Positions 163-11,981 of a stretch of DNA of 64,000 bases are shown piece after piece. The number at the start of each line of letters is the position of its first letter. The first letter of the stretch is position 1. The translations under genes were made by a program, and so were the position numbers. The stretch is from Acetobacteraceae bacterium (GTDB lineage Bacteria > Pseudomonadota > Alphaproteobacteria > Acetobacterales > Acetobacteraceae), in the NCBI GenBank assembly GCA_030041255.1, contig JASHOF010000175.1:1-64000 (forward strand). Reading direction: 5' to 3'. The notes under the pieces are model-generated. The model made no database searches, was not told where the DNA came from, and saw nothing but the letters and a program-made list of their open reading frames with translations.

Positions 163-1071
163 TCAGGGCCGCTGGGCGCCGCTCGTATTCACGAAGATCG
201 AATAGAGCGAGGTATGCCCGCAGATGAAAAGGCGGTTCCGCTTCGTCCCTCCGAAGGCGACATTCGCCACCTTCTCGGGCACCGGTATGCGGCCGATCAG
301 CGCCCCCTCCGGGCTGATGCACTGCACCCCGTTTCCGGAGCTGGTCCAGATATTGCCGTCCATATCGACGCGGAATCCATCCGGAATCCCCGGGCTCACC
401 TCGCAAACGACACGTGACCCGCTGAGCCGTCCATCCGCCCCGACGATGAAGGCGCGGATATGGTGCGGCTTGGAGGGATCCGGCCAGAAGCCGGAATCGG
501 CGATGTAAAGGCTGCGCTCGTCGGGCGAGAAGGCAAGCCCGTTCGGCCGCGAGAAATCGTCGGCTACCACCCCGAGATGCCCGTCCTGCGGATCGACCCG
601 GTACACATTGCAGGTGCCGATTTCGCTTTCCGCCTTGCCGCCCTCGTACTCGGCGCTGATGCCGTACACGGGATCGGTGAACCAGATGCTGTCATCGGAG
701 CGCACGACCACATCATTGGGCGCGTTGAGCCGCTTGCCCTGGTAGCGTTCGGCAATCACCGTGACGCTGCCGTCCCATTCGGTGCGGGTCACCCGCCGCG
801 TTTCATGCTCGCAGGTGACCAGCCGCCCCTGGCGGTCGCGCGTATTGCCGTTCGAGAAATGCGAGGGCGCGCGGAAGGTTGCAACCTGGCCGGTCTCTTC
901 GTCCCACCGCAGCATCCGGTTGTTCGGAATGTCGCTGAAGATCAGAGAGCGCAGGTCCGCGAACCAGACCGGTCCCTCCGCCCAGCGCATTCCGCTGTAG
1001 AGCTTCTCCAGCCAGACAATGGGAATCGTATAGCGCCGGAAGCGTTCATCCAGGATTTCGAATGGCTCCAT
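163..1071 (-). CDS. SMP-30/gluconolactonase family protein
   Basis: Protein of 302 aa of the SMP-30/gluconolactonase/LRE beta-propeller family, which hydrolyses sugar lactones with one divalent metal. Visible signatures are the N-terminal EGPVW (metal-binding Glu), NAPNDVVV in the middle and the later IADSG, all conserved metal-site segments. I chose the ATG at 1071 because GGGAGGAA sits about 6 nt upstream; the GTG at 1089 has no such site. It overlaps the 3' end of the permease gene by 26 nt and is last in a four-gene sugar-import operon, so it probably opens the lactone of an imported or oxidised sugar. The exact sugar cannot be read from sequence. Confidence 0.88.
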   Translation of the reverse strand: MEPFEILDERFRRYTIPIVWLEKLYSGMRWAEGPVWFADLRSLIFSDIPNNRMLRWDEETGQVATFRAPSHFSNGNTRDRQGRLVTCEHETRRVTRTEWDGSVTVIAERYQGKRLNAPNDVVVRSDDSIWFTDPVYGISAEYEGGKAESEIGTCNVYRVDPQDGHLGVVADDFSRPNGLAFSPDERSLYIADSGFWPDPSKPHHIRAFIVGADGRLSGSRVVCEVSPGIPDGFRVDMDGNIWTSSGNGVQCISPEGALIGRIPVPEKVANVAFGGTKRNRLFICGHTSLYSIFVNTSGAQRP

Positions 1072-2155
1072 CTGCTTTCCTCCCTTCACCCCCCGCCGGG
1101 CGCGAACCCGCCTTCAGCTCCAGGCTGGTATCGGCCGCCGTCGCGGCGCGGCGCCGCCGCTGGGCGGCATAGACGGAAAGGCCGACGGCAATGATCAGGA
1201 TGCCGCCGTTGAAGAAGTACTGCACGTAGAACGGCGCCCCGAGCTGCTGCACGCCCGAGAACGAGAACGCGAGAATCAGCACCGCGAGCAGGGTCCCGAC
1301 CACGTTGACACGCCCGGGATGAATGGAGGTCGCGCCGAGCAGGGTGGCGGCGAACGCCGGCAGCAGATATTCCGGCCCGACCGAAGGGGTCCCGGTCTGC
1401 AGCAGGCTGCCCAGCATGATCCCGGCCACACCACAGAGGAACCCCGCCGCGGTGAAGGTGCCGATGATATGCCGCTCGATCCGGATGCCAGTCAGTTCAG
1501 CCGCCCGCGGATTGGCACCGATCACGTAGAGGCTGCGGCCAACCGGCAGGCGCTCCGTGACGATCCACAGCAGGACCGCGGCAACCGCGACGAAAACCGC
1601 CGGCAGCGGTATGTGCAGATAGATCCCGGTCAGCCCGGTGAAACTCGCCGGCAGGTTGTTGCCGGTGATCTGCTGGCCGCCGCTGTACCAGTTGGAGACG
1701 CCGAACAGCAGCGTTCCCACGCCCATGGTCGCGATGAATGAATCGATTCCGAAACGCGCTACCAGGACGCCGTTGACCGCCCCCACCACCAGCGCAAGCA
1801 GCAGGATCGCCACCGCCGCCACCGGCCACGGCACCCCGTACTGTACCTGCAGGCCGACGATCAGCACCTGCGCCATCCCGAGATGGAAGCCGACCGAAAG
1901 GTCGAATTGCCGGGTGGCCAGCGGGATCATCTCCGCCAGCGCCAGCATCGCCGTCACCGACTGGCCGACCAGGATCGTATTGATGTTGATCGCACTGAAA
2001 AACGTGCTCGGCCTGAGCAGCCCGAACAGCACCATCACCAGCACGAACACCAAGGCAAGCCCGTAGGTTGCCGTGAACTCCCCAAGCCGCCGCCCGACCC
2101 CTACCGCCGGCGCCGCCGCCGCAACCGCCAGGCTGCTCGTTTGATCGCTTGCCAT
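1046..2155 (-). CDS. sugar ABC transporter permease (RbsC-like)
   Basis: Inner-membrane permease of 369 aa of the branched-chain/ribose (BPD_transp_2) family. It has about ten hydrophobic segments, starting with YGLALVFVLVMVLFGLL near residue 30, and the family motif LPAFAATLLGATSIHPGRVN in the C-terminal third, which corresponds to the ATPase-contact loop. It lies 11 nt after the double ATPase gene and overlaps the lactonase gene, so it is translated from the same message. The first 25 or so residues are Ala-rich and may be a cytoplasmic tail or a slightly early start. The substrate is probably a pentose, hexose or sugar acid by family, not proven. Confidence 0.9.
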   Translation of the reverse strand: MASDQTSSLAVAAAAPAVGVGRRLGEFTATYGLALVFVLVMVLFGLLRPSTFFSAININTILVGQSVTAMLALAEMIPLATRQFDLSVGFHLGMAQVLIVGLQVQYGVPWPVAAVAILLLALVVGAVNGVLVARFGIDSFIATMGVGTLLFGVSNWYSGGQQITGNNLPASFTGLTGIYLHIPLPAVFVAVAAVLLWIVTERLPVGRSLYVIGANPRAAELTGIRIERHIIGTFTAAGFLCGVAGIMLGSLLQTGTPSVGPEYLLPAFAATLLGATSIHPGRVNVVGTLLAVLILAFSFSGVQQLGAPFYVQYFFNGGILIIAVGLSVYAAQRRRRAATAADTSLELKAGSRPAGGEGRKADGAIRNPG

Positions 2156-2166
2156 CAGCGCCCTTT

Positions 2167-3726
2167 TCAGTCCGCCCCGCTCTCTTCGCGCCCCATCGAG
2201 GAACAGGCGATCAGATTGTCAACGCTGAGATCGCCCCCGTGCAAGTCGGCCGTGATCCGGCCGCGGCCGATCACCAGGGCACGATCGCAAAGCCCGGCCA
2301 CCTCCTCGAAATCGGAGGAAACGACGAGCACACCGGCGCCCCGCGCGGCGGCGTCGCGCAGAAGCTGGTGGATCGCGAACTTGGCCCCGACATCCACGCC
2401 CGCCGTCGGCTCCTCCATGATGAAAAGACGCGCCTTGGACTCGAGCCACCGCCCGACAAAGACCTTCTGCTGGTTGCCGCCGCTCAGCCAGTCGATCAGG
2501 GCGGCCGGGTTGCGCGGCCGCACATCGAAGCGCTCGAGCCGTGCCGCGATGCGCCGCCGCTCGCGCCCCGGCGCAACCCACCGCCACGCCGCCTCGCCGC
2601 CGATGTGCGGGCTTGGCAGCATGTTCTCCTGCACCGACATGCCTGAGAAGGCGCTCTCGCGTCCGCGGTCGCCGGCCAGGAGGGCGATGCCGCGCGCGAT
2701 GCGTTCGGGAATGCCTTCGACTGGCGAAAGGGGCACCCCGTCCAGTCGCAACTCCCCCCTGTCCGGTCGCACCGCGCCGAAGATGGCACGCCCGATATCC
2801 TGCTGGCCGGCTCCGCGCAGGCCCACCAGCCCCACCACGTCGCCGGCGGCAATCTCGAAATCGACCGGGCCGCGCCGGCCGATCCAGAGACCACTCGCCG
2901 CCAGCACCGGCTGGCTCGCCCCGCCCGCCGCGTGCGCCGTCGCTGCCATCCCGATCTCGCGGCCCAGCATGTCCCGCACCAGCGCCTTCGGAGTGGTGTC
3001 GGCAAGCCGCGCCGTGCGCACCTTCCTTCCGTCGCGCAACACCGTGACCCTGTCCGCAAGGCCGGCCAGTTCGTTCAACCGGTGCGAAACATAAATGATG
3101 CCCTTGCCGCTCGCGCGCAGTGTGCGCAGCACCTGGAAAAGATGCTGCGCGTCCGGCTCCGGCAGGGAAGCGGTCGGCTCGTCCAGCACCACGATCTCGC
3201 TCCGCCGTGCCAGCGCCCTGACGATCCCGAGGATCGCCCGTCCGGCAGCGCCGAGCGTGCCCACGGGCAGCCGCGGATCCGGCGCCTCGACCTGCATCGC
3301 CGCATAGATTGCGCGGGCCTGGGACCACACGCCCCGCCAGTCGATCAACCCGCGTCGGCGCGGGAACCCGCTCACCAGGGCGACGTTCTCGCCGACGCTC
3401 AATTCATCGACCAGGCCGAGGTCCTGGTGCACGAACGAGATCGGCAATTCGTGCAGCCATGGTTCAACCCGTGCGCCGTGCAGCCTGATCTCCCCGCCAT
3501 CGGCCTGGTAGATGCCGGCAAGGCACTTGATCAGTGTCGATTTCCCGGCCCCGTTCTCGCCGATCAGGGCGTGGATCTCGCCCCGCTGCAACGTGAGATC
3601 GACGCGGTCGAGTGCAAGCGTGCCGAAGAACCGTTTCGTCAACCCGTCGATCGCCAGTGTCGGCACCGCCCCGGCCTCCATGGCATGCTCTGCCACGGAG
3701 TGCCGGGCCGCGCCGCCCGCCGCCAT
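2167..3726 (-). CDS. sugar ABC transporter ATP-binding protein (RbsA-like)
   Basis: Double-cassette ATPase of 519 aa that powers import of a sugar. The N-terminal cassette has Walker A GENGAGKST, a degenerate signature LGAAGRAIL, and Walker B IVVLDEPTASL. The C-terminal cassette has the usual degenerate Walker A (GLRGAGQQD), the signature LSGGNQQKV and Walker B FIMEEPTAGVD; this asymmetry is normal for RbsA/MglA. It starts 1 nt beyond the stop of the binding-protein gene. An internal Met 45 nt downstream (MEAGAVPTL) is an alternative start because homology begins there. It works with the adjacent permease and binding protein. Confidence 0.93.
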   Translation of the reverse strand: MAAGGAARHSVAEHAMEAGAVPTLAIDGLTKRFFGTLALDRVDLTLQRGEIHALIGENGAGKSTLIKCLAGIYQADGGEIRLHGARVEPWLHELPISFVHQDLGLVDELSVGENVALVSGFPRRRGLIDWRGVWSQARAIYAAMQVEAPDPRLPVGTLGAAGRAILGIVRALARRSEIVVLDEPTASLPEPDAQHLFQVLRTLRASGKGIIYVSHRLNELAGLADRVTVLRDGRKVRTARLADTTPKALVRDMLGREIGMAATAHAAGGASQPVLAASGLWIGRRGPVDFEIAAGDVVGLVGLRGAGQQDIGRAIFGAVRPDRGELRLDGVPLSPVEGIPERIARGIALLAGDRGRESAFSGMSVQENMLPSPHIGGEAAWRWVAPGRERRRIAARLERFDVRPRNPAALIDWLSGGNQQKVFVGRWLESKARLFIMEEPTAGVDVGAKFAIHQLLRDAAARGAGVLVVSSDFEEVAGLCDRALVIGRGRITADLHGGDLSVDNLIACSSMGREESGAD

Positions 3727-3727
3727 C

Positions 3728-4915
3728 TCAGCAGGGGTTGTTGGTGCCCTTCCAGATGTTCAGGTAGTGGCAGGCGAAGTTGTTGCTCGGCACGAGTTCG
3801 TTGCTCTTGCCGCCCTCCTGGTCGACGTTCTCCTTGGTGCGGATATAGGTCGGCTGCACCCATTGCGCGGGAGGCTGCCCCGCCATCGCGCGCACGACCG
3901 CGTCCACCGCCTCGTAGCCGAACAGCGTGCTCGGCTCGGGAACGGTCGCGACCTCATACTCGCCCTTGCGGATCAGCTCGTACGCCGAAGGCGGCGCATC
4001 CGCACCAATCAGCTTCACCCTGTCGAACGGCACGCCGGCAGCCCTGAGCGTCGACGCCACGTACGGATAATAGTCGTCGCAGCAGGTGGTCATCCACCAT
4101 GAGCTGCCATAGCGGGCCAGGAGCCCCGAGGTCGCCGGCCCCACGCGCTGGGCAAGATCGCCGATCGGCACGTTGACCATTTCAAGGAACTTGCAACCCT
4201 TGCAGTTGATGATCGGCGTCGTCGCCGCCTTGGCCTTGAAGCGGGCAATCGCGAAACTGTTGTCCACCATGTGGATGTCGTGCGCGGTGCCGTCCGACAT
4301 CGCGATCACGTAGGCCGCCTGCGATTCGCCGATCTCGGCCGCGCTCGAGGCGATGTTGTCGTAGAGTCCGAGGTCCGGAGCCGGGCCGGGGAAGGCAGTG
4401 GCATGGATCCCGACCACCGGGATGCATTCCTTCATCGCTTCCTGGATCGGCTTCTGCAGCGCATGCGCATCGTCAGGCGTGATGATCGCCGTCACGTGCG
4501 CGGCCAGTGCCTGGTACTCCGCCGCCAGCTCGCCCGCCATCGTGCCGCGCGTATTGAAGGCCCGGAACGTCCAGCCCAGTGCCTTCGTCGCGTCGCGAAC
4601 GCCGTTGCCCCAGCCGTTGTAGGTCGAATAGCCCTGGTCCGCGACCCAGGCGATCGTCACCGGGCCGGCCAGCGCCTTGGGCCCGCTGGTCGGGCCGAGC
4701 CACTTCGTCTGCAGCCCGGTATGCTCGGCCACGAACTGCTTGGCCTGGGCAACCGAAAGCGTCTGCACGATGGTCGGCGCCGGCCACGCCGGATAGGGTT
4801 GCGAGCGCGTCGTGCATGCCGCCCACCCCTGTCCCGAGACCAGCATCCCCCCGGCCGCGATCGCCGCCCCGATCGCGCAACGCCCCCAGTTCCGTAACCC
4901 TTCACACCACTCCAT
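3728..4915 (-). CDS. periplasmic sugar-binding protein of the ABC importer
   Basis: Exported substrate-binding protein of 395 aa of the type I (LacI/ribose-like) periplasmic fold. It opens with an N-terminal signal region (hydrophobic IGAAIAAGGMLVSGQGWA) and contains the segment AWVADQGYSTYNGWGNGVRDA, typical of the first lobe, and IITPDDAHALQKPIQEAM of the hinge-adjacent loop. Unusually for the family it has several Cys residues, including an INCKGCKF motif and a TTCCDDYYPY segment, possibly disulfides in the periplasm. First gene of the operon; its start faces the FadR-type regulator across about 300 nt containing palindromes. Confidence 0.88.
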   Translation of the reverse strand: MEWCEGLRNWGRCAIGAAIAAGGMLVSGQGWAACTTRSQPYPAWPAPTIVQTLSVAQAKQFVAEHTGLQTKWLGPTSGPKALAGPVTIAWVADQGYSTYNGWGNGVRDATKALGWTFRAFNTRGTMAGELAAEYQALAAHVTAIITPDDAHALQKPIQEAMKECIPVVGIHATAFPGPAPDLGLYDNIASSAAEIGESQAAYVIAMSDGTAHDIHMVDNSFAIARFKAKAATTPIINCKGCKFLEMVNVPIGDLAQRVGPATSGLLARYGSSWWMTTCCDDYYPYVASTLRAAGVPFDRVKLIGADAPPSAYELIRKGEYEVATVPEPSTLFGYEAVDAVVRAMAGQPPAQWVQPTYIRTKENVDQEGGKSNELVPSNNFACHYLNIWKGTNNPC

Positions 4916-5113
4916 TGCTTCCTCCCTCCTCGTCTCCCGGCCAAACGGATCTGGCCGCCCGATGGCTCAGGCTGCCGCCGCCTCCGGGCGCTCTGTACCC
5001 CTGTTGCCGTGAACGGGCACGGGCCTCTGTCCCCGCTTCACGATCCCGTACATAGACGATCTCCTTTCGCCCTGCCGCCCAATATCGGCAGCCGGCCGTT
5101 GCCGCAAGCAGCC

Positions 5114-5127
5114 ATCAGATGTCTGAT
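5114..5127. promoter_or_regulatory. operator-like palindrome (site 1) for the FadR-type regulator
   Basis: Perfect inverted repeat ATCAGA-TG-TCTGAT, 6-2-6, in the 301 nt between the divergent sugar importer and the regulator. Short palindromes of this size next to a GntR/FadR gene are typical operators. Binding by the neighbour is inferred. Confidence 0.6.
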
Positions 5128-5184
5128 AGCTTCAGGCTCCGTTCGTCCCGCTGTCAAGCCATCCTGCCCGCTCACGCACCTTGC

Positions 5185-5205
5185 ATCAGTCATCTGATGT
5201 CGGAT
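5185..5205. promoter_or_regulatory. operator-like palindromes (site 2), overlapping
   Basis: Two overlapping elements: ATCAG-TCAT-CTGAT at 5185-5198 and ATCTGATGTCGGAT at 5192-5205, the latter matching site 1 at 12 of 14 positions. It ends 11 nt before the regulator start codon, so occupancy would block the regulator's own expression (autoregulation is an inference). Confidence 0.55.
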
Positions 5206-5216
5206 AGGTCGCGCTC

Positions 5217-6056
5217 ATGCCTCGGCAAGGCCCGCAATCGGCAGGCGCCCCGAGCGATCCGGCAGATGCCATCAAGCCGATCGCGCGGCCCAATCTCGCC
5301 CGCGAAGTGGTGAACGCCATCGCCCGCCTCATCATGGAGCGCGTCTGGGCGCCCGGCGACAGCATCCCCTCCGAGAAGGAACTCGCCACCCGCTTCGGCG
5401 TCGGCCGCTCGACCATCCGCGAAGCGATCCAGAGCCTCGTCACCATGGGCGTGGTCAGCATCCGCCCCGGCGAGGGCTCTTTCATTCGCGAGCCGACTTC
5501 CGAACTGCTCTCGGATGCCTTCCTCTGGGGCCTGCTGCTGAGCCCGCGCAATGTCGGGGACTTCACGGAGTTCCGTATCTGCGTCGAAACGATGTGCGCC
5601 GCCAGGGCCGCCGCCACATCGTCACCCGCAACGATCGGCCAGCTCCGCGAACTCCTCGTCCTGATGAAGCGCGATCAGGCCGACGACCGGCGCTTCAAGG
5701 AGCACGACAACCGCTTCCACGTCACGATCGCCGAGGCAACCGGCAATCCGATCTTCGTCACGGTGGTTGCGACCCTCCTGTCCACGGTCGGCCTCTGGTT
5801 CCCGATCACCTCGCCGCTCACCGGCAGCGTCGAGGACACGCACGCCGAGCATCGCGCGATCGCCGCCGCCATCGCCGATGGCAACGAGTCAAAAGCCCGC
5901 CAGGCGATGCAGGCGCATCTCCTGAATGCGGCCGAGCGCCTCAGCATTCTTCTCCAGCGCAGCAGCCGCGGCATCGCCGGCCGCGCCGCCGTCCTCCGTC
6001 CCTCCGGGACAGCAACGACCCGCCCGCCGCGCATCCGGGCGCGCCGGCCCCTCTGA
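5217..6056 (+). CDS. FadR/GntR-family transcriptional regulator
   Basis: Regulator of 279 aa. The winged helix-turn-helix lies around residues 25-90 with the GntR hallmarks GDSIPSEKELATRFGVGRST and VSIRPGEGSFI. The C-terminal FCD domain shows the metal/ligand-site residues in DNRFHVTIAEATGN, an EHRAI helix and MQAHL. FadR-subfamily members usually sense sugar acids or organic acids, which fits the lactonase in the divergent operon. Upstream palindromes at 5114 and 5185-5205 are likely its operators. The last 30 residues are Arg/Pro-rich and poorly conserved in style. The ligand is unknown. Confidence 0.9.
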   Translation: MPRQGPQSAGAPSDPADAIKPIARPNLAREVVNAIARLIMERVWAPGDSIPSEKELATRFGVGRSTIREAIQSLVTMGVVSIRPGEGSFIREPTSELLSDAFLWGLLLSPRNVGDFTEFRICVETMCAARAAATSSPATIGQLRELLVLMKRDQADDRRFKEHDNRFHVTIAEATGNPIFVTVVATLLSTVGLWFPITSPLTGSVEDTHAEHRAIAAAIADGNESKARQAMQAHLLNAAERLSILLQRSSRGIAGRAAVLRPSGTATTRPPRIRARRPL

Positions 6057-6087
6057 GCGCCGGTGCAACCACGAAAACTGAGCGCTC

Positions 6088-7500
6088 TCAGGCCGCGAAC
6101 AACTCCTTGCCGACGAATTCGCCCTTCGCGATGCCCCGCGGGCAGGCGAATATCCCGCTCCCGACATGGGTCGTGAACTGGTTGAGAAGATCGAGCTTCG
6201 CCATGTTCTCGAAAATTCTGATGAAGCCGGTTCGCGGATCCCGCTGGAAGGCGATGAACAGCAGCCCGGCCTCGTATTCCAGGCCCTGCCGCCAGGGCGG
6301 CCAGCGCTCGGCGATCATGGCCAGGCCATCATTGTAGGAATAGCTGCGCCGCAGGATGCGCGCGCCGCCATTGCTGGAAGCCGCGCCCAGCCGGACATGC
6401 GCGTTGTCGCCGATCACAAGGTTCCCGTCCTTGTCCGTGGCATCGAGATCGAGCGGGGCGAATTCGCCACCGCCCGTCAGCGGCCCGCCGCCGAGCTTCC
6501 GCCGACCGATCACCTGCTCCTGGAAATCGAGCGCGACATTGTCCCAGTGCTGGAGCGCGATCCGGATGCGGCGCACCACGAGGTAGCTGCCGCCTTGCAT
6601 CCACTCCGGCCCCTCTTCGCCGACCCACACCACGTCCTCGAAAGTGCCGTTGCCGGCGAGCTTGCCGCCCGCGCGCGCCGCCGGGTGGGGGCGGCCGGGA
6701 TTCTCGGTGCCGTCCTTGAAGCCGAGCAGATTGCGCGGCGTCTCGCCGGACGGCCCGCCCGGCAGGAAACCGGCCTGGATCCAGCGCAGGACTGCCGCAC
6801 CTTGATGGGCGTCGTACGGAGCCGCAACACCCGCCTGCTTGCCGCCATAGCCGTTGGCGGCATCATTCGGGGCGGCCATCCGGGCAAGCTCACGGATCGC
6901 ATGGAACGCAACCGCGCCGTCGTCGGCGCAAGCCTGGATGCACAGATCCCCGCCGGTGTGCGCCGGGTCGAGCTGGTCGCCGTTGAACCGCGGCAGATCG
7001 ACCAGCGCCGCCGGACGTTTTGCCTTCAGGCCGTAGCGGTCCTTGCCGTCCTTCTCGAACAGGCCCGGTCCGAAACCGAAGGTCAGCGTCAGCCGCCGCG
7101 GCCCGAGCCCGAGTGCGTCCCCGCTGTCAGGGGGTGGGACGGTGGGATCGCCGCCCGCATTCCCCAGCGCCCCGCCCGCCGCCAGGCGCCGGGCGGCCAG
7201 GGTCCAGTCGCGCAGAACACGGACGACATCCTCCGCCCGTTTGGCGACAAGGTCGAAGCTTGCGAACAGGACGTGCGTCTGCTGCGGCGTATCGATCCCC
7301 GCCTGATGACGGCCATGGAACGGAATCGGAGCGCCGTTGCCGCTCGTCCCGCCGACCGTGCGCGGCGCGCTGTTGCCGGCCGAAGGCGCGGCTGTTCCGG
7401 CACCATCGGCTACGGCACGCTCTGCAAACGCCGACGCGGCCAGCACACTCCCGGCCGCGCCAAGAAAACCCCGCCGCGAGGAAAACGGGCAGCCGCCCAT
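6088..7500 (-). CDS. efeB: Tat-exported Dyp-type peroxidase, EfeB/deferrochelatase type
   Basis: Haem peroxidase of 470 aa. It begins with a twin-arginine signal (SSRRGFLGAAG then a hydrophobic run), so it is exported folded. The Dyp hallmark GFKDGTENP is at residues 260-268 (distal Asp263), and the proximal haem His is His368 in IGDNAHVRLG. EfeB family members oxidise or de-chelate haem iron in the periplasm and usually sit with EfeU and EfeO; neither is present here. An AAGGAG site lies just upstream of the ATG. It is the last gene of a three-gene operon with a secreted propeller-like protein and an outer-membrane porin, behind a Fur-like box. Family is sure; iron-uptake role is inferred. 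Confidence 0.9.
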   Translation of the reverse strand: MGGCPFSSRRGFLGAAGSVLAASAFAERAVADGAGTAAPSAGNSAPRTVGGTSGNGAPIPFHGRHQAGIDTPQQTHVLFASFDLVAKRAEDVVRVLRDWTLAARRLAAGGALGNAGGDPTVPPPDSGDALGLGPRRLTLTFGFGPGLFEKDGKDRYGLKAKRPAALVDLPRFNGDQLDPAHTGGDLCIQACADDGAVAFHAIRELARMAAPNDAANGYGGKQAGVAAPYDAHQGAAVLRWIQAGFLPGGPSGETPRNLLGFKDGTENPGRPHPAARAGGKLAGNGTFEDVVWVGEEGPEWMQGGSYLVVRRIRIALQHWDNVALDFQEQVIGRRKLGGGPLTGGGEFAPLDLDATDKDGNLVIGDNAHVRLGAASSNGGARILRRSYSYNDGLAMIAERWPPWRQGLEYEAGLLFIAFQRDPRTGFIRIFENMAKLDLLNQFTTHVGSGIFACPRGIAKGEFVGKELFAA

Positions 7501-7517
7501 TCCGGCGCTCCTTCGCC

Positions 7518-8669
7518 TCAGTGCCCCAGCACCAGCGTATTCACGTCGTCCTCCACGTAATAGAACCCGTCGCCCGCAGGCGTCATGGCGATGCCGAACA
7601 GGTCGCCGCTGCCGGGCGGGGACTGCGCCTTGTCGACGTCAATCCATTGTGCAGCAAGCTGTTTGCCCGTCGCGGGATCGATCTCGACAACCTTCCCGTT
7701 CAGCGCATTGGTTGCGAGCAGATGGCCGTTCGGTGCCATGCACAGCGCGAGCGGCCGCTGCAGCAGCCCGTCCTTGGTCACGTCCTTCCCCGTGCCGGCG
7801 CTCGTCGTGCGGGTGAGGGCGTCGGGGATCGCACCGATGCGGTTGCCGATGGCGTCGGAGACATAGAGCACGCCGTTCTTGCCGAGCGCGAGGCCGGTCG
7901 GGCCGATGATGAACACGCCCTTGTCGGCCTGCTCGCCGAAGCCGCTCCCGATCACCGTCTCGTTGGTGACGACCGGCGGTTTCTCCGCAGAGGCCGAGAG
8001 CGTCAGGCGGACGATCGTTGCCTTGTTCACCACCGGGCTCGAATCCGTCGGCGCGCTGACGCCGAAGCCCGTGTTGCTGACGAAGAGCGTGACCGTGCTG
8101 CCGTTGTCGACGACCGCCACGTTCCCCCAGGGCCCGTCGATGTTCGGGCCGGCGATGGTACCGGCGACCTTGCCCTCGGAGTCGAGCACGATCAGGCAGC
8201 CCGGGCCCTTGGTCTTCGTGGTGCCGTCGTCGCTGGGCAGGCTGCCGACGAGCACCCAGCCTGACTTCAGCATCACCATCGCGGTGGTCAGTCCCACCCC
8301 GCCCGGACATGGCGCGAGATGACGCGGGATGGCGGCGAACAGCGTCATCTTCTTCGTCGTCGGATGGTAGTCGACGATCGTGGTGCCGAGACCCTGGAGA
8401 TTCTTGTCGTCATTGAAATTGTCGACCAGCACGTCACCCTTCCGGATCTTCCCGGCCGAGACCGGGGCGACATAGATGGCGTAGGGATTGACATCGCCAT
8501 TGTCCGGCACGGTCGAGGTGAGCGTGGTGTGCCGGTGGATGGACTGCAGGAACAATGGGGACGCCTGCGCCGGCGCACGCTGCGGCAGGGCCGCGACGGC
8601 AAGCGCCAGGGAAAGCGTGCCGGCAGTCGCCCATGGGAATGATACGCTCGGTGTACGGCTGGTTCGCAT
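7518..8669 (-). CDS. secreted beta-propeller-like (NHL-type) protein of unknown function
   Basis: Exported protein of 383 aa from the ATG at 8669. I prefer this over an upstream start (8714) because it places a normal signal peptide (hydrophobic TLSLALAVAALP, cleavage near APAQA) close to the N terminus, with GGAGG about 10 nt upstream. The mature part has repeated strand-turn units such as GPTGLALGKNGVLYVSDAIG, RPLALCMAPNGHLLATNALN and LFGIAMTPAGDGFYYVEDD, typical of NHL-like propellers. No catalytic motif was recognised. It lies 9-54 nt after the porin and 17 nt before efeB, so it may be a periplasmic partner of the peroxidase. Function unknown. Confidence 0.75.
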   Translation of the reverse strand: MRTSRTPSVSFPWATAGTLSLALAVAALPQRAPAQASPLFLQSIHRHTTLTSTVPDNGDVNPYAIYVAPVSAGKIRKGDVLVDNFNDDKNLQGLGTTIVDYHPTTKKMTLFAAIPRHLAPCPGGVGLTTAMVMLKSGWVLVGSLPSDDGTTKTKGPGCLIVLDSEGKVAGTIAGPNIDGPWGNVAVVDNGSTVTLFVSNTGFGVSAPTDSSPVVNKATIVRLTLSASAEKPPVVTNETVIGSGFGEQADKGVFIIGPTGLALGKNGVLYVSDAIGNRIGAIPDALTRTTSAGTGKDVTKDGLLQRPLALCMAPNGHLLATNALNGKVVEIDPATGKQLAAQWIDVDKAQSPPGSGDLFGIAMTPAGDGFYYVEDDVNTLVLGH

Positions 8670-8723
8670 CGGTCTTGATCCTCCGATCGGGGTAGGATTT
8701 CCAGAGTGCATCACGGGATTTCC

Positions 8724-10223
8724 TCAGAACGTGACAACGGTGCGGAAGCCGATGACGGCCTCGTTGCCGATCCGCGCCGCAGGGTTGTCCGGATTCTGGA
8801 TGCCCCCACCCGGGTTGAAGATATACTGGAAGTCCGGCTGGATAGTCCACCACGGCGCGGCCTGGAACTGGTACGTCAGCTCGAGGAAGGTCTCGGTGCT
8901 TTGCACCGGGTAGGGCATGCCGGTGAAGAAGGCCGTCTGCTGGTCGAGCGCGCTCTTCGCCCCGCTCACTTTGACGATACCGAAGCCGAGGCCGAGCTGA
9001 TCGTTGTCGCGACCCGGCAGCGGATCCGCCAGCACCAGGCCGCCATTGGCGCTCATGGTGATGAAGTTCTGCTGGGCCGGCGCTCCCATCGCACGCAGGA
9101 ACACGCCAAGCGAACGCGGCCCTTGCGGATCCGGCCGCCACACCATCTGGTCCATCACGCCGTAGAAGCTGAAATTGCCCTTGTGCATCCGCGGGATACC
9201 CGTGCTTGCCGGATTGGCGAGCGAGAGGCCCGTATCATCGAATTCCTGGTCCGGGAACGAGCCGGTATCGTACCAGAACCCGAGCTTGTAGGTGCCCGGC
9301 AGGCCGGCAGCCCGATGGCCGTAATCCATCTGGCCGAGGGAAGGCTGGTTCACCGCGTACTGCAATTCGGCGATGATCAGCGCGCCGGTGTTCAGGTTGA
9401 ACCTTGTGCCCCCGGCGTCGAGCGATTGCGGATCGTTGTCGAAGGGTCCGCCCGGCGGGTTGTCGTCGAATACGCCGGCCAGCACGGTGAGGCCGGGCGC
9501 GGGGATGCCCCTTACCCGCACGCCAAGCGAGGAGAGCGGGTAGGCCGGCCCCCCGGCATAGAGATTGTTGGAGGGCAGCGCCGGCCAGCCCATCATCGTG
9601 TTGATGAAGAGGCCGCTGTACTGGCTGACGATGAATTCCTGGTCGAGACTCTGCTGTCCGATCTTGATGTCGAAAGCGCCGTTCGCGAAAGATTGATCGT
9701 ACCAGAGTTCCCAGAGCCGGGTCGCATTCTCCGCCTCGTTGCCGTTCGTGGTCTGGATGGCGCCGAGATAGGAGGCATCGAAGTCGTTGTTTCCGTGGAT
9801 TTGCAGCGCACTCACGTTGAAGGTGCCGCCCGGCAGGCCGAAGGCCGTATCGGTATTGATCTGCAGCGTGGCGGTGGTCAGCCCCTGCATGGTCGCACCC
9901 TGCTTGAAGCCGCCGGAGACGTTGCCGAGCACCGTTTCGGCATCCGTGACGTTGAGCGTAATGCCGTAATTGCCGAGCACGGTGCGCAGCCCGCCCAGCG
10001 TGGGGAAGAGGTTGCTCCGGGAGGGCGCGAAGAGGCCGGTGAAGAAGCCGGGCTCGCTCGGCGCCGGCGCCGCGGTGTCGGTCTGTGCGGCCGCCTTGCC
10101 CGGCACGGCCAGGAGGCCCGTGGCGAAGAGGGCGGCACCCAGGAAACCGCGCGCGGCCCGGACGTGGTGCAACGGCAGGCTCCGATCGGGCGCCTGTTCG
10201 CAGGCTCGCGGGAAGGGCGGCAT
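8724..10223 (-). CDS. OprB-family carbohydrate-selective porin
   Basis: Outer-membrane porin of 499 aa. It has a signal peptide (hydrophobic FLGAALFATGLLAVPG, then AAAQ), many amphipathic beta strands, and a C-terminal Phe (TVVTF), the usual assembly signal. Family features are LWELWYDQSF, IKIGQQSLDQEFIVS and LELTYQFQAAPWWTIQPDFQ near the end, all typical of OprB. I chose the ATG at 10223; a TTG two codons upstream is also open. First gene of the operon that ends with efeB and preceded by a Fur-like palindrome about 45 nt upstream, so it may admit a substrate linked to iron nutrition rather than a sugar. Confidence 0.88.
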   Translation of the reverse strand: MPPFPRACEQAPDRSLPLHHVRAARGFLGAALFATGLLAVPGKAAAQTDTAAPAPSEPGFFTGLFAPSRSNLFPTLGGLRTVLGNYGITLNVTDAETVLGNVSGGFKQGATMQGLTTATLQINTDTAFGLPGGTFNVSALQIHGNNDFDASYLGAIQTTNGNEAENATRLWELWYDQSFANGAFDIKIGQQSLDQEFIVSQYSGLFINTMMGWPALPSNNLYAGGPAYPLSSLGVRVRGIPAPGLTVLAGVFDDNPPGGPFDNDPQSLDAGGTRFNLNTGALIIAELQYAVNQPSLGQMDYGHRAAGLPGTYKLGFWYDTGSFPDQEFDDTGLSLANPASTGIPRMHKGNFSFYGVMDQMVWRPDPQGPRSLGVFLRAMGAPAQQNFITMSANGGLVLADPLPGRDNDQLGLGFGIVKVSGAKSALDQQTAFFTGMPYPVQSTETFLELTYQFQAAPWWTIQPDFQYIFNPGGGIQNPDNPAARIGNEAVIGFRTVVTF

Positions 10224-10265
10224 CGGCAAATCTTTCTCCTCTCTCCCGGGCGGTCGGGACCTAAA

Positions 10266-10287
10266 TGCAAATGAGAGTCATTCGCAT
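10266..10287 (-). promoter_or_regulatory. Fur-like iron box
   Basis: Near-perfect inverted repeat: TGCAAATGA, a GAG spacer, then TCATTCGCA, 8 of 9 pairs matching. This closely resembles the alphaproteobacterial iron-box form found upstream of iron-uptake genes. It lies about 45 nt upstream of the porin start and so would control the porin, propeller and efeB genes. Confidence 0.65.
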
Positions 10288-10465
10288 CTGGTAGAATCGC
10301 CTGATATCGTACCGCTGCGGTCCTGTCAAATCGGCTCTGATTCCAGAGTCGAAGGCCGGATCGGCGATCCGCCGGGCGAGGCGCGACCGCTCTCCCGATA
10401 AGCGCGGAATCGCGCGACGGCCGACGCGCCACGCGTGGGGGAAAAAGCGGCATCCGCGCAAATCA

Positions 10466-10493: not shown

Positions 10494-10545
10494 AAGAGGT
10501 TCAGTGAAGAACCCACTTTGTGCCCAAAAAATGGTCCCGCCCGAT

Positions 10546-10560
10546 TGGCTCCGTTCTTGC
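10546..10560 (+). promoter_or_regulatory. sigma-54 (-24/-12) promoter-like element for the urea operon
   Basis: TGGCTC followed by TTGC places GG (10547-10548) and GC (10559-10560) exactly 12 bp apart, the invariant spacing of RpoN promoters. It sits 80 nt upstream of the urtA start. Urea transport operons are commonly under NtrC/RpoN nitrogen control; no clear NtrC site was found. Confidence 0.5.
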
Positions 10561-10640
10561 TCCAAGGCCAAAGGGCGCTGCCGCCGCGACTGCGGAGGCA
10601 GCGAGGCTTGGTCATGGGACAAAAAACAGAGGAGGCACTG

Positions 10641-11981
10641 GTGGGGCTTGACGGTTTGAAACTGGGACGGAGGGAGTTCGGTGGGCTGGGGATGGGCGTG
10701 GCGGCAGCAGCGGCCACACTCGGCACCGCAAGCCTCGTGAGCCGCGCCGCGCGGGCCGCCGGCGACAAGATCAAGGTCGGAATCCTGCACTCGCTGTCCG
10801 GAACGATGGCGATCAGCGAGGCCCCGCTCAAGGACGTGATGCTGATGCTGATCGATCAGCAGAACAAGACGATGGGCGGCGTGATGGGAAAAGAGTTGGT
10901 CCCCGTCGTGGTCGATCCGGCATCGAACTGGCCGCTCTTCGCGGAAAAGGCGCACGAGCTGCTCTCGGTCGAGAAGGTGGCCGCCATCTTCGGCTGCTGG
11001 ACCAGCGTCTCGCGCAAGTCCGTCCTCCCGGTGTTCGAGCAGCTCAACGGCATTCTCTACTATCCGGTGCAGTACGAAGGCCAGGAGTGCAGCCGCAACG
11101 TCTTCTATACCGGTGCGGCGCCGAACCAGCAGGCGATCCCCGCGGTCGACTACCTGATGAACCAGGTGGGGGTGAAGCGCTGGGTGCTGGCCGGCACGGA
11201 CTATGTCTATCCGCGCACCACCAACAAAATCCTCGAAGCCTATCTCAAGCAGAAGGGCGTCAATTCCGCCGACATCATGATCAACTACACGCCGTTCGGC
11301 TATTCGAACTGGCAGAGCATCATCGCTGAGATCAAGAGCTTCGGCTCGGCCGGAAAGAAAACGGCCGTGGTCTCCACCATCAACGGTGATGCCAACGTGC
11401 CCTTCTACAAGGAGCTCGGCAACCAGGGCATCAAGGCCACCGACATCCCGGTGGTTGCCTTCAGCGTCGGCGAGCAGGAGCTGGCTGGCATCGACACCGC
11501 GCCGCTGGTCGGTCAGCTCGCCGCCTGGAACTATTTCGAGAGCGTCGACACCCCCGCCAACAAAAAGTTCATCGCCGACTTCAAGGCTTTCGTGAAGAAC
11601 GACAAGCGCGTCACCAACGACCCCATGGAAGCCCATTATATCGGCTTCAACATGTGGGTGAAGGCGGTCGAGAAGGCGGGCACGACCGATCCCACTTCCG
11701 TGATCGACGCCATGATCGGTGTCGCCCACCCCAACCTCACCGGCGATTTCGCAACGATGATGCCGAACCACCATCTGAGCAAGCCGGTGCTGATCGGCGA
11801 GGTGCAGGCCAACGGCCAGTTCAGTGTCGTCTATCAGACGCCCGGGCTCGTCGTGGCCCAGCCCTGGTCACCCTATCTGCCGGAATCGAAGAACCTGATC
11901 GGCGACTGGCTTCCGCCGATGTCCTGCGGCAACTACGACGTGGTGGCCGGCAGGTGCCTCGGCAGGACCCAGAAGAGCTGA
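10641..11981 (+). CDS. urtA: urea ABC transporter substrate-binding protein
   Basis: Periplasmic urea-binding protein of 446 aa. I start it at the GTG at 10641 because GGAGG lies 5 nt upstream; the in-frame ATG at 10614 lacks a site. The N terminus carries a twin-arginine-like signal (RREFGGLGMG and an Ala-rich hydrophobic run). UrtA features are KVGILHSLSGTMAISE, NQQAIPAVDYLM, and AHYIGFNMWVKAVEKAG. It heads urtABCDE-ureDABCEFG, all co-directional and tightly packed. A sigma-54-like element and direct repeats lie upstream, consistent with induction under nitrogen limitation (inference). Confidence 0.95.
   Translation: MGLDGLKLGRREFGGLGMGVAAAAATLGTASLVSRAARAAGDKIKVGILHSLSGTMAISEAPLKDVMLMLIDQQNKTMGGVMGKELVPVVVDPASNWPLFAEKAHELLSVEKVAAIFGCWTSVSRKSVLPVFEQLNGILYYPVQYEGQECSRNVFYTGAAPNQQAIPAVDYLMNQVGVKRWVLAGTDYVYPRTTNKILEAYLKQKGVNSADIMINYTPFGYSNWQSIIAEIKSFGSAGKKTAVVSTINGDANVPFYKELGNQGIKATDIPVVAFSVGEQELAGIDTAPLVGQLAAWNYFESVDTPANKKFIADFKAFVKNDKRVTNDPMEAHYIGFNMWVKAVEKAGTTDPTSVIDAMIGVAHPNLTGDFATMMPNHHLSKPVLIGEVQANGQFSVVYQTPGLVVAQPWSPYLPESKNLIGDWLPPMSCGNYDVVAGRCLGRTQKS

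Follow-up and report, generated by a model that had tools for sequence, protein, structure and literature searches.

On balance, an operon of an Acetobacteraceae genome that encodes an OprB-family porin, a secreted beta-propeller protein and an EfeB-like DyP peroxidase appears to be a Fur-type, iron-repressed and non-siderophore iron route that resembles EfeUOB but is built from other parts. Judged from gene content, we read the propeller and the ferric transporter FbpABC as taking the places of EfeO and EfeU, with a dedicated OprB porin added.

The operon was analyzed in a window of 64,000 nucleotides, the whole stretch of DNA presented, from a draft genome of 4.35 Mb that is 100% complete. 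The three genes lie on the minus strand in the order porin, propeller, peroxidase, and the intergenic gaps are 9 nt (porin/propeller) and 17 nt (propeller/DyP) when the longest starts are taken (Table 1). Pfam matches, a fold prediction and the Tat motif confirmed, at their positions, the porin, the propeller and the EfeB-type peroxidase named in the original prediction. On the porin side, a divergent gene for the urea ABC transporter component UrtA (window 10518-11981) begins about 230 nt from the Fur-like box; the opposite flank (163-6056) is occupied by an ABC transporter of the sugar type (about 163-4915) together with a GntR/FCD regulator (5217-6056).

Table 1. Features of the porin-propeller-peroxidase operon (window positions)
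Feature	Position	Strand	Details
Possible promoter, TTGACA (10324-10329), 17 nt, TATCAG (10301-10306)	10301-10329	-	found by eye
Fur-like box TGCAAATGAGAGTCATTCGCA	10266-10286	.	palindrome; immediately 3' of the candidate -10
OprB-family porin with signal peptide	8724-10229	-	start TTG 10229 or ATG 10223; PF04966
Secreted beta-propeller protein, NHL-type	7518-8714	-	start GTG 8714 or ATG 8669
EfeB-like DyP haem peroxidase	6088-7500	-	Tat signal SSRRGFL; D263, H368, R385
Terminator-like hairpin, then TTTT	6078-6091	-	DyP gene end; closes the operon

The porin covers the Pfam OprB model over its full length (PF04966; E = 9.6e-93, domain positions 1-372 of 372) and is distantly related to the structurally known Pseudomonas OprB (4gey; E = 2e-17). 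The OprB family is annotated as carbohydrate-selective. Identity outside the genus amounts to about 44-63% in the porin and 46-60% in the peroxidase, which carries the Dyp_perox_N/C domains of Pfam and retains a Tat motif and the haem/catalytic residues (Table 1). The top NCBIfam model for the peroxidase was the EfeB deferrochelatase TIGR01412, with 399.9 bits against a cut-off of 428. This score is probably lowered by an insert of ~23 residues (about residues 209-233; window 6799-6876), which among the aligned orthologues was present only in the window and in locus L037, because the Chromobacterium orthologue reached 442.8 bits, above the cut-off. In Telmatospirillum (L029, 8071-12129), the three genes are followed by those for a RidA/chorismatase-like protein, an FMN_bind protein and ApbE, an arrangement that suggests a flavin-based electron-transfer add-on.

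In Pfam, the propeller gave one weak NHL repeat and a sub-threshold match to DUF7302, and nothing else. Its N-terminus contains a signal-peptide-like stretch, and the predicted fold is a six-bladed beta-propeller of the NHL / SMP-30 type. The closest structural matches were the TRIM71 NHL propeller, the designed Pizza6, Drp35 and DFPase, from which it is set apart by a sequence identity of 10-18%. Profile and fold searches of the PDB returned generic NHL/SMP-30/WD propellers, so that no function could be inferred from structure. Nevertheless, the propeller is the best conserved member of the trio, with about 60-77% identity across classes, and its alignment sets it apart as a separate, tightly conserved family. 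Two cysteines (C136 and C173) are invariant in this alignment and probably form a disulfide; there is no invariant histidine, and no sequence proof of metal binding. The closest named relative is a metagenome-assembled Acetobacteraceae bacterium, whose propeller is 96% identical. In the draft genome G004, two contigs (L017 and L018) break off at one and the same residue of a propeller gene with 96% identity, and their upstream DNA differs, which reflects either a duplication of the propeller or an assembly fork. Distant relatives of the propeller occur in Burkholderia (L085, 8001-9116; L086, 8001-8933; 33-36% identity), and no porin, DyP or Fbp gene is linked to these paralogues.

A near-perfect Fur-like palindrome had been predicted ahead of the porin gene, and our recount gave the same 8 of 9 matching pairs, arranged around a 3-base centre. 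When TGCRAATGANNNTCATTYGCA was searched at up to three mismatches, the box, with 0 mismatches, was the single match in the 64 kb, against 0.04 expected per window. Given the candidate TTGACA and TATCAG elements just upstream, the box would overlie the transcription start; a consensus promoter scanner called no promoter at these elements, and both, with their 17-nt spacing, are also kept in the sister species represented by L017. Downstream of the candidate -10, the box would be well placed for repression.

The whole 4.35 Mb genome was then scanned with TGCAAATGAGAATCATTCGCA at up to three mismatches. Matches were found at the porin operon and at one other distinct place, the start of the fbpABC operon on contig C69; an apparent extra box at one end of C38 was discarded as a duplicate of the C69 site, since the two contigs overlap. 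The shorter TGCRAATNATTYGCA at up to one mismatch added one site, which lies slightly more than 100 nt ahead of the gene for a TonB-dependent receptor. The box family thus has three distinct genomic sites, at the trio operon, fbpA and the TonB receptor, and because the latter two precede iron-acquisition genes, we regard the box as a putative iron (Fur-type) box, for which this sharing is the best evidence. Among orthologous operons, 15 of 23 upstream regions had a TGCRAATNATTYGCA site at up to three mismatches, against 0.8 expected from shuffles and none in 23 gene-internal control regions, in a test that is not independent because the consensus was drawn from these very loci. The E. coli 19-mer Fur consensus separated the upstream regions from shuffles moderately, and the 7-1-7 box TGCRAATNATTYGCA did so far better; some Chromobacterium sites fitted the classical Fur consensus as well. 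Some orthologous upstream regions have no good box, which counts against an iron-repressed system.

Using the propeller as bait, we searched genome collections and obtained 29 loci whose contigs permitted a check of the neighbours, a few of them perhaps from the same species. In every one of the 29, the propeller gene has the DyP gene as its neighbour, and a porin gene is adjacent in 26, so that the co-occurrence of the three genes elsewhere, proposed as a check of the original prediction, was indeed found. Their hosts include Acetobacteraceae, Acidocella, Telmatospirillum, Chromobacterium and Aquitalea, as well as Bordetella metagenome bins, Paraburkholderia and Caballeronia. The propeller family is rare (4 of 398 Pseudomonadota genomes, the source genome counted), and its distribution over relatives is uneven (12 of 60 genomes). 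At loci with the trio only, the neighbouring genes (ATP synthase, LIV-type ABC transporter, lyase) looked unrelated and were not retained as partners. No published porin-propeller-EfeB(-FbpABC) cluster was found in the searchable literature, which took in few subscription papers, and the Chromobacterium iron literature examined does not mention the cluster.

Genes of the fbpA/fbpB/fbpC type lie in the cluster or divergently from it in 16 of the 29 loci, in several arrangements and in both alpha- and betaproteobacteria. They are located 3' of the DyP gene in Chromobacterium, Aquitalea, Paraburkholderia and Caballeronia, ahead of the porin gene in L020, divergent from it in L023, and immediately ahead of the propeller gene in L032, L075 and L076, which are without a porin, and in L033, where the porin comes last. 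An annotation deposited for Paraburkholderia independently lists, in this order, a carbohydrate porin, a hypothetical protein, efeB, and the substrate-binding protein, permease and ATPase of an iron ABC transporter. The binding proteins match structures of HitA, SfuA and FbpA with E-values down to 2e-80, and the QH and YYW motifs of the iron site are retained in the operon-linked FbpAs. In the Chromobacterium and Aquitalea proteins (L024, 9358-10362; L025-L028; L035), the segment SPADVYFASNS corresponds to SPADVFFTENS of the source genome; the Glu of the latter, a residue that serves as an iron ligand in Neisseria FbpA, therefore seems replaced. Instead of fbpABC, an EfeO-type cupredoxin stands beside the porin together with FTR1 in L068 and without FTR1 in L067. 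L072 (5083-6222) encodes a 379-aa polypeptide in which an FTR1 permease is fused to a C-terminal EfeO-type cupredoxin domain.

The source genome has one close fbpABC, under the same box as the trio operon. Its FbpA, on contig C69, matched HitA at E = 2.3e-80 and keeps both motifs, and its gene is followed by fbpB and then fbpC. The operon had been described as lacking EfeU and EfeO, which holds for its surroundings, with EfeO (cupredoxin and/or M75) absent from the operon and its window neighbours, and extends for EfeU to the entire genome, where a search for FTR1 (PF03239) gave no match while control genomes were positive. FeoB (FeoB_C, PF07664) was likewise without a match in the source genome and was detected in 7 control genomes. 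Since there is neither FTR1 nor FeoB, and two TonB plugs are present, FbpABC is the obvious inner-membrane partner, one that was out of sight for the original prediction. Among the 60 relatives, a close FbpA was found in 7 of the 12 trio genomes versus 2 of the remainder (Fisher about 6e-5, an indicative value because the genomes are related). Against an iron route of the EfeUOB kind stand the TIGR01412 score of the window DyP, which is below the cut-off, a trio genome with neither FTR1 nor a close FbpA (G005), a sister species with fbpABC and no trio (G001), and the Telmatospirillum DyP (L029), in which GFKDGT is changed to GFSNGK and the catalytic Asp is lost.

Periplasmic ferric iron is the common denominator of the linked permeases, and together with the precedents of EfeB and FeoP it led us to propose the following route. 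Upon iron shortage, the repressor would leave the box that the operon shares with fbpABC, and the products of both would be made together. The OprB porin may then pass a small iron species, most likely Fe(II), without TonB energy, as the FeoP precedent suggests. In the periplasm, the Tat-exported peroxidase would use H2O2 to convert Fe(II) to Fe(III), by analogy with B. subtilis EfeB, and the propeller, in the place of EfeO, may bind or hand over the product or scaffold the peroxidase. FbpA, which belongs to the ferric-binding family, would finally carry Fe(III) to FbpBC for import, a pairing suggested by gene linkage. An iron function of the trio is very likely on these sequence grounds; we infer that the chemistry is oxidation of Fe(II) and not dechelation of haem, and likewise infer the role of the propeller.

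The original prediction had envisaged a porin-linked route for iron or haem. Its iron half is supported by the conserved trio, the recurrent boxes, the presence of the box on fbpABC and the TonB receptor gene, and the linkage to ferric permeases. The haem half found no support: none of the examined loci has a linked haem receptor, a haemophore or an ABC transporter for haem, and FbpABC, FTR1 and cupredoxin, which are the partners, handle ionic iron. Passage of haem through an OprB pore is itself unlikely. We thus consider it improbable that the DyP frees iron from haem as a deferrochelatase, with the propeller holding haem or protoporphyrin and FbpABC or FTR1 importing the iron; the propeller offers no invariant histidine for such a role, just the Cys pair. 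In favour of this scheme, the TIGR01412 model carries the name deferrochelatase, and E. coli EfeB and S. aureus FepB were reported to release iron from haem (PMC3577903). The activity of the EfeB family is disputed, which counts against the Fe(II) route: besides the release of iron from haem, B. subtilis EfeB is reported to oxidise Fe(II) and to supply EfeU with the Fe(III) (Miethke et al. 2013, as summarised in PMC4481299), and ferric iron reduction has also been reported for an EfeB relative (PMC4481299).

It is similarly doubtful that the porin imports small ferric chelates of citrate, gluconate or other sugar acids, from which DyP and propeller would strip the ligand, or whose redox state they would change, before transfer to FbpA. 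Such a route would suit a sugar pore in acid-forming Acetobacteraceae, and OprB is annotated as carbohydrate-selective. FbpA-type proteins take free Fe(III), which would also fit. However, chelate binding has no direct support, the FTR1- and cupredoxin-linked versions point to an oxidase-coupled Fe(II) pathway, and the system is equally present in Chromobacterium and Burkholderiaceae. Least probable is an iron-responsive module for oxidative stress or the cell envelope, with the peroxidase serving to remove H2O2 and the iron permeases lying nearby through co-regulation alone: DyPs are peroxidases and the transport role is deduced from sequence, but repeated linkage to two unrelated permease families in several arrangements would be unexpected from co-regulation alone, and a dedicated porin would be hard to account for.

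The Fe(II)-oxidising route that we favour is akin to EfeUOB / FepABC / YwbLMN in its iron-regulated operon, here by prediction, with a Tat-exported EfeB-like DyP, and in the two trio loci with linked FTR1 and/or an EfeO-type cupredoxin. It differs in adding the propeller and the porin and in its usual partner, which is FbpABC and not EfeU; with no EfeU in the genome and no EfeO in the operon, the trio falls outside EfeUOB as that system is defined. FbpABC / HitABC / SfuABC systems are represented through the linked transporters, the shared box in the source genome and a binding protein that is clearly in the family, but here have a peroxidase, a propeller and a dedicated porin at their side. 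Known Fbp systems usually receive their iron from TonB receptors or from other periplasmic sources. In Acidithiobacillus, FeoP is an OprB-family porin under a Fur box, beside the iron importer genes feoABC (PMC2631029). That arrangement parallels the present porin, box and importer, whereas its importer is FeoB, which the source genome lacks, and a peroxidase or propeller is not mentioned there.

The most interesting part of the system is the conserved propeller family, and the partner permease FbpABC is what is new here. The propeller could well represent a new periplasmic iron-handling family which, with the peroxidase and the porin, would form a modular, TonB-independent route from the outer to the inner membrane, able to work with either of two unrelated permeases, FbpABC or FTR1; modular iron uptake of this kind has not been described as such in the literature that we could search. 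A likely role is thereby offered for a strongly conserved family of 'hypothetical proteins', and some porins annotated as sugar pores may be iron pores. The natural linkage between EfeB and FbpABC also bears on the disputed role of EfeB in iron uptake: an EfeB-type peroxidase tied genetically to FbpABC, a well understood ferric transporter, argues for the delivery of Fe(III).
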